From Verrucomicrobiales bacterium (lineage in GTDB: Bacteria > Verrucomicrobiota > Verrucomicrobiia > Verrucomicrobiales > DEV007), in NCBI GenBank assembly GCA_023253615.1, contig JALRFZ010000146.1:1-12673 (forward strand): a stretch of 12,673 bases of DNA. Reading direction: 5' to 3'. The position numbers were made by a program, and so were the translations under genes. A model generated the notes under the pieces. The model did not search any database. It was given only the letters and a program-made list of their open reading frames with translations, and was not told the DNA's origin. Positions 9,736-10,125 of this stretch are shown here, one piece after another. The number at the start of each line of letters is the position of its first letter. The first letter of the stretch is position 1.

Positions 9736-9840
9736 TCAGAGGTCGAAGCGGTCGGCGTCCATGACCTTGGTCCAGGCGGCGACGAAGTCGTCGACGAACT
9801 TCCTTCCGGCGTCGGCGCTGCCGTAGACTTCGGCGATGGC
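9736..9840 (-). other. katG: Catalase-peroxidase (KatG) C-terminal remnant
   Basis: About 31-35 codons match the last residues of KatG, including [23 protein letters not shown] and DRFDL at the stop. In a complete gene of about 720-750 residues this is the end of the C-terminal peroxidase-like domain. Everything upstream is absent, replaced by ilvB sequence in the same frame. Its own terminator (9641-9691) is intact, so the left-hand DNA probably came from a genome where katG stood on the minus strand just upstream of the 257-aa secreted gene. Confidence 0.75.
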
Positions 9841-10125
9841 CGTGACGAGGTTGAGCGCGCCGGGGCCGCTCGTGGCCATGCAGACGCCGGGCCTGCCGGT
9901 GACGCGGGCGTAGCCCTGGGCCGCGAACCCGCCCCCCTGCTCGTGGCGGGGCAGGATCGTGCGGATTCGGTCGCCGAAGCGGGTGAGGGCCTGATGGAGC
10001 GGCATGCTCGCCCCGCCTGGATAGGCGAAAATAACGTCCACGCCCTGCCGCACGAGCGACTCGACGACCACGTCGGCCCCTGAAACGAAGGCGGTGGAGG
10101 CGGCGGGTCGGGAGGCGGTGGCCAT
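9736..10125 (-). pseudogene. Chimeric frame: acetolactate synthase N-terminus joined to catalase-peroxidase C-terminus
   Basis: The frame encodes 129 residues. Residues 1-98 match the start of acetolactate synthase large subunit (IlvB), the TPP-dependent enzyme of branched-chain amino-acid synthesis: [48 protein letters not shown] with the catalytic Glu62, and [18 protein letters not shown] full IlvB has about 560-600 residues. Instead of the expected DA-type continuation, residues 99-129 read [31 protein letters not shown], the conserved end of catalase-peroxidase KatG. Neither half could work: IlvB lacks its central and C-terminal TPP domains, and KatG lacks both haem domains. The start at 10125 (MATASRP) fits Planctomycetes IlvB; an ATG at 10137 is also in frame. 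The switch falls at 9829-9843, where both families can share Ala-Ile-Ala. Assembly chimera or rearrangement is far more likely than a functional fusion. Confidence 0.85.

Follow-up and report, generated by a model that had tools for sequence, protein, structure and literature searches.

The paper on GUNC names chimeric contigs among the errors of metagenome-assembled genomes (MAGs) and describes misassemblies as relatively rare compared with mis-binning (PMC8201837). Chimeras formed during multiple displacement amplification are described in a study of a single E. coli cell, in which the junctions were primed at 2-21 complementary nucleotides and most of the chimeras were inversions (406 of 475) (PMC1855051).

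We analyzed a window of 12,673 nucleotides, which is the entire contig C255 of bin G000 (5.0 Mb, 802 contigs, 84.7% complete, 4.65% contamination). As in the chimeric MAG contigs described with GUNC (PMC8201837), the genes of C255 fall into two lineages on either side of a single point, and one gene of the bin has a foreign duplicate. Unlike in those contigs, the break lies inside two genes and leaves the frame open, and gene callers would report a believable fused ORF. The overlap of 11 bases at the break falls within the 2-21 nucleotide range of the amplification chimeras (PMC1855051); unlike these, C255 joins two organisms.

We are confident that C255 is a chimeric contig made of DNA from two organisms of two phyla, Verrucomicrobiota and Planctomycetota. 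The fused ilvB-katG gene that it carries is very probably not real.

Features of the window, with the origin that we favour for each part (positions are those of C255)
Feature	Position	Strand	Evidence
Verrucomicrobial part, native to the bin: PQQ-like, FGE-sulfatase-like, DUF1552 and DUF1592-family genes, hypothetical protein, katG tail	1..9829	.	Same-genus identity and GC
katG tail from the bin's genus, last ~35 codons and stop	9736..9840	-	TIGR00198 676-714; 205-base piece 9636-9840, 89.8% to G010
Breakpoint, 11 bases GCCATCGCCGA	9830..9840	-	Three-way alignment of window, L059 and G010
Planctomycete part	9841..12673	.	92% identical DNA in L059, unbroken over 9830-12667; GC 0.688; tetranucleotide change at the join
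Planctomycete ilvB, first ~99 codons, cut at the join	9841..10137	-	PF02776; TIGR00118 2-86; 96 aa identical to L059
Planctomycete glycoside hydrolase family 3 gene (NagZ-like), additional copy foreign to the bin	10269..11366	-	PF00933; 92% to L059
Planctomycete MFS transporter gene, running off the contig end	11390..12673	-	PF07690; 97.6% to L059

A single open frame joins IlvB to KatG

The minus-strand frame 10221-9736 was open and encoded 161 aa from a TTG, or 133 aa from the ATG at 10137. It ran from the N-terminus of IlvB (acetolactate synthase large subunit) into the last approximately 35 residues of KatG (catalase-peroxidase). Such a switch within one minus-strand frame had been claimed in the initial annotation, and it was confirmed by profile and PDB matches. 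TIGR00118 was matched at its positions 2-86 of 557 (window 9823-10083) and TIGR00198 at its positions 676-714 of 716 (window 9736-9852). In the 133-aa form, residues 19-104 matched acetolactate synthase chains among the PDB sequences, and residues 93/95-133 matched catalase-peroxidase chains. The IlvB part contained PF02776, the TPP-binding N-terminal domain. No KatG domain was reported by Pfam in the short katG tail, which TIGR00198 and the PDB sequence search both detected as KatG. The fused protein matched 52 NCBIfam families, and the 25 shown all fit the IlvB part.

We used the fused protein as a query against proteins from elsewhere. There were 2510 proteins scored, and none among the 120 listed held both the IlvB and the KatG part (coverage <=77%). 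A close copy of the fusion would be expected at the top of the listed matches. The scan of named genomes used NagZ, not the junction, as query.

The left side matches the genus of the bin

We compared the window with genomes from the bin's own genus (Verrucomicrobiota), G010, G014 and G003, of which G014 is the closest congener. The stretch 4906-9636 was 93% identical to G014, as was the PQQ-like protein 1076-2410 (93%), and the hypothetical protein 8796-9566 was 96% identical to its G014 counterpart. G010 matched the window at 4976-9466 (84%) and again at 9636-9840 (90%). Among the 120 listed homologues of 8796-9566, all 16 rows with an organism name were Verrucomicrobiota; the best named one among those listed came from Verrucomicrobiia bacterium Tous-C2TDCM (82%).

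The N-terminus of the bin's katG was identified at the end of another contig, C713, 6.2 kb of which align collinearly with G010 (82%). The next two genes beside katG on C713 were LysR regulator-like and MFS transporter-like, as in G010 (judged by eye from the translations). The sequence due after the katG tail is therefore known in outline, and it is something other than ilvB. A TIGR00198 profile search of the bin did not recover the middle of katG.

It is G010 and C713 that tie the katG tail to the left side. Some observations count against a chimera. The match to G014 ended at 9636, 200 bases before the break, and G014 had no katG there. Between its counterparts of 9466 and 9636, G010 carried approximately 1.2 kb that the window lacks, and its katG includes a 261-base run of N with no single reading frame across it.

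The right side resembles planctomycete DNA

The right side was compared with L059 (CAMDDJ010000026.1), a MAG contig with a planctomycete label. The gene order MFS-NagZ-IlvB of the window was that of L059, where ilvB is full length (611-codon frame, 704.9 bits against TIGR00118, cut-off 538.35). NagZ is the name that we assume for the glycoside hydrolase family 3 gene. The MFS-NagZ stretch was kept at 76-79% DNA identity in four further records labelled Planctomycetaceae or Planctomycetota (L060, L062, L071 and L087), and L061 matched window 10269-11836, reaching the end of its record.

NagZ was present in 35 of the 36 searched genomes, the bin included. Among the best 80 of 394 matches, the window copy was 92% identical to L059, then 74-77% identical to five planctomycete-labelled records, and at most 72% identical to Verrucomicrobia-labelled ones. 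Its best match in the same-genus genomes having NagZ (21 of 22) was 56-64%. The bin's own NagZ, on contig C55, was 98.6% identical to the G014 copy and 57.7% identical to the window copy, and reached at most 64% against 80 named loci. Of the bin's 35 other relatives, one gave a match to the MFS protein, and this match was weak (E 9.9e-4, 26%).

For the IlvB fragment, the best same-genus match was only 42-48% (20 of the 22 same-genus genomes having one). Five of the 36 relatives, from other families of the same order, reached 64-69%, and therefore the phylum cannot be read from IlvB alone. In the search with the fused protein, all six rows with an organism name among the 120 listed of 2510 were Planctomycetota. 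The low same-genus identity of 42-48%, with the foreign NagZ adjoining, led us to reject a rearrangement within one genome, that is, between the bin's ilvB and its own katG.

The label of L059 itself, Candidatus Kuenenia stuttgartiensis, looks doubtful. The records listed next to it for NagZ and MFS are Planctomycetaceae or Planctomycetota, and its isolate name resembles, as we take it, that of a plankton sample.

Composition changed at the join as well. GC climbed from 0.634-0.637 on the left to 0.688 on the right. In the tetranucleotide difference score, calculated in 1.4-kb windows with the stretch homologous to C255 excluded from the L059 reference, 13 of 13 windows from 1 to 9800 sided with the bin's genus, the one spanning the join was near zero, and the three beyond it sided with L059.

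It had been suggested in the initial annotation that the two sides may come from different genomes, and that matching taxa would speak against a chimera. The taxa differ, with Verrucomicrobiota on the left and Planctomycetota on the right, and the N-terminus of katG on C713 supports the suggestion.

The break lies at 11 bases compatible with both parents

In a three-way alignment of the window, L059 and G010, only 9830-9840 was compatible with both parents. This common stretch, GCCATCGCCGA on the minus strand, agreed with G010 at 11 of 11 bases and with L059 at 9 of 11. L059 ceased to match left of 9830 and G010 ceased to match right of 9840. Going from left to right in 50-base steps, identity to G010 fell from 0.76-0.96 before 9830 to 0.32-0.38 beyond 9840, while identity to L059 rose from 0.24-0.28 to 0.90-0.98. 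Both parent loci run uninterrupted across the break in the relatives: G010 DNA continues into katG and L059 DNA into full-length ilvB. The computed position agrees with the earlier placement of the switch at 9829-9843, the shared stretch being slightly longer than the GCC ATC GCC proposed. The accompanying proposal, microhomology joining or a false assembly join, gains support from the 11 bases common to both parents and from the continuity of each locus in a relative.

At the join, katG and ilvB are in the same frame and both code for Ala-Ile-Ala, and for this reason the fused ORF stays open. Directly after the shared stretch, Asp was found in all 101 IlvB homologues that fit the local motif among the 120 listed (the other 19 did not fit and were left out), and also in the 3 of 9 ilvB loci fitting it. 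The KatG tails of the window and of G010 have Glu at this place. From these codons we put the longest possible overlap of the true parents at about 11-12 bases.

Origin of the join

We propose that 1-9829 is DNA of the binned Verrucomicrobiota organism, that 9841-12673 is DNA of a planctomycete, presumably of the same sample, and that the two pieces were joined inside katG and ilvB at the 11 shared bases. The join was probably made in vitro, as a chimeric molecule or read produced by a template switch at the microhomology during amplification or library making, which the assembler would then have accepted. The fused ORF would then be without function. The short overlap suggests the in-vitro step, and a chimeric molecule or read joined at microhomology is probably the source of the join.

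An ordinary de Bruijn-graph or overlap misassembly would differ from this in the last step only, and the contig would be chimeric all the same. Misjoins of this kind belong to a named error class of metagenome assemblies (PMC8201837). However, with L059, at 92%, as a stand-in for the actual right-hand parent, the overlap of the parents at the break comes to about 11-12 bases at most. Assemblers work with k-mers or overlaps longer than this. Because so few bases are shared, we favour the in-vitro chimera over a k-mer misjoin and consider the latter unlikely.

A second alternative is a real and very recent transfer between phyla, in which planctomycete DNA was inserted by microhomology joining and truncated a verrucomicrobial katG. 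The single contiguous contig, the in-frame microhomology of 11 bases and the failure to find the middle of katG in the bin would all fit such an event, and a recent planctomycete donor would give the same sequence picture up to the contig end. However, the bin itself has the N-terminus of katG, located where a contig ends and with genes ordered as in G010. Moreover, the planctomycete gene order continued to the end of the contig with no return junction (L059 matched to 12667 of 12673), the search for a second boundary being limited by the contig end at 12673. None of the 8 window proteins that were scanned came from a mobility gene, and there was no other fused protein among the 120 listed of 2510. 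We therefore give a real transfer very little chance, and just as little to what it would entail, namely that the insertion coexists in the population with a katG allele whose N-terminal part is that on C713. A true functional fusion of the TPP-binding N-domain of IlvB with a KatG tail has the open frame in its favour. Against it, the frame keeps only about a sixth of IlvB (99 of 611 codons) and approximately 35 KatG residues, the two parts come from different phyla, and no homologue with both parts was identified among the 120 listed of 2510. We rejected this explanation as wildly improbable.

Consequences for the bin

With the chimeric contig as the preferred reading, C255 should not be read as evidence for gene fusion or transfer, and the warning that its sides stem from different genomes is to be applied at 9830-9840. 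The markers in the bin were partly duplicated and partly orphaned: there was a second NagZ on C55, and neither the rest of ilvB nor the middle of katG was found in the bin. The rest of ilvB was sought in the bin by a TIGR00118 profile search and with 17 kb of L059, and was not found; outside the window, the latter search, aimed at the remainder of the planctomycete contig, gave nothing beyond 66-80% matches on C55, C23, C333 and C760 (40 of 219 first-look candidates scored). The bin thus carries a foreign second NagZ, and its strongest acetolactate synthase match is the planctomycete fragment. A call of the branched-chain amino acid pathway would rest on foreign DNA.

An intact large subunit of acetolactate synthase from the bin's own lineage was not found either; the only TIGR00118 hits were the foreign fragment and a weak match on C366 (28.9 bits).

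Variable gene neighbourhood on the left side

Presence of katG and its likely regulator differed between G003 and G010. G003 (L036 4473-4518) was without the stretch that holds katG and the LysR-like gene in G010 (L034 10546-14235), and had approximately 45 bases between the same flanks in its place; G003 is 53% complete, and its comparison for katG covered this locus.

G014, G010 and G003 lost their match to the window at 4906-4976, where their flanks differ among the three, and the left flank of G014 matched the bin's own contig C679 at 72-85%. The match edges near 4905 and 9636 look like a variable gene neighbourhood, with a second misjoin as a possibility. The 4.7-kb block 4906-9636, which holds the DUF1552 gene, the DUF1592-family gene and the hypothetical protein, was shared with G014, G010 and G003 at a DNA identity of 83-93%, but with differing flanks; its edges were at 4906-4976 on the left and, on the right, at 9636 (G014), 9631 (G003) and 9466 (G010).
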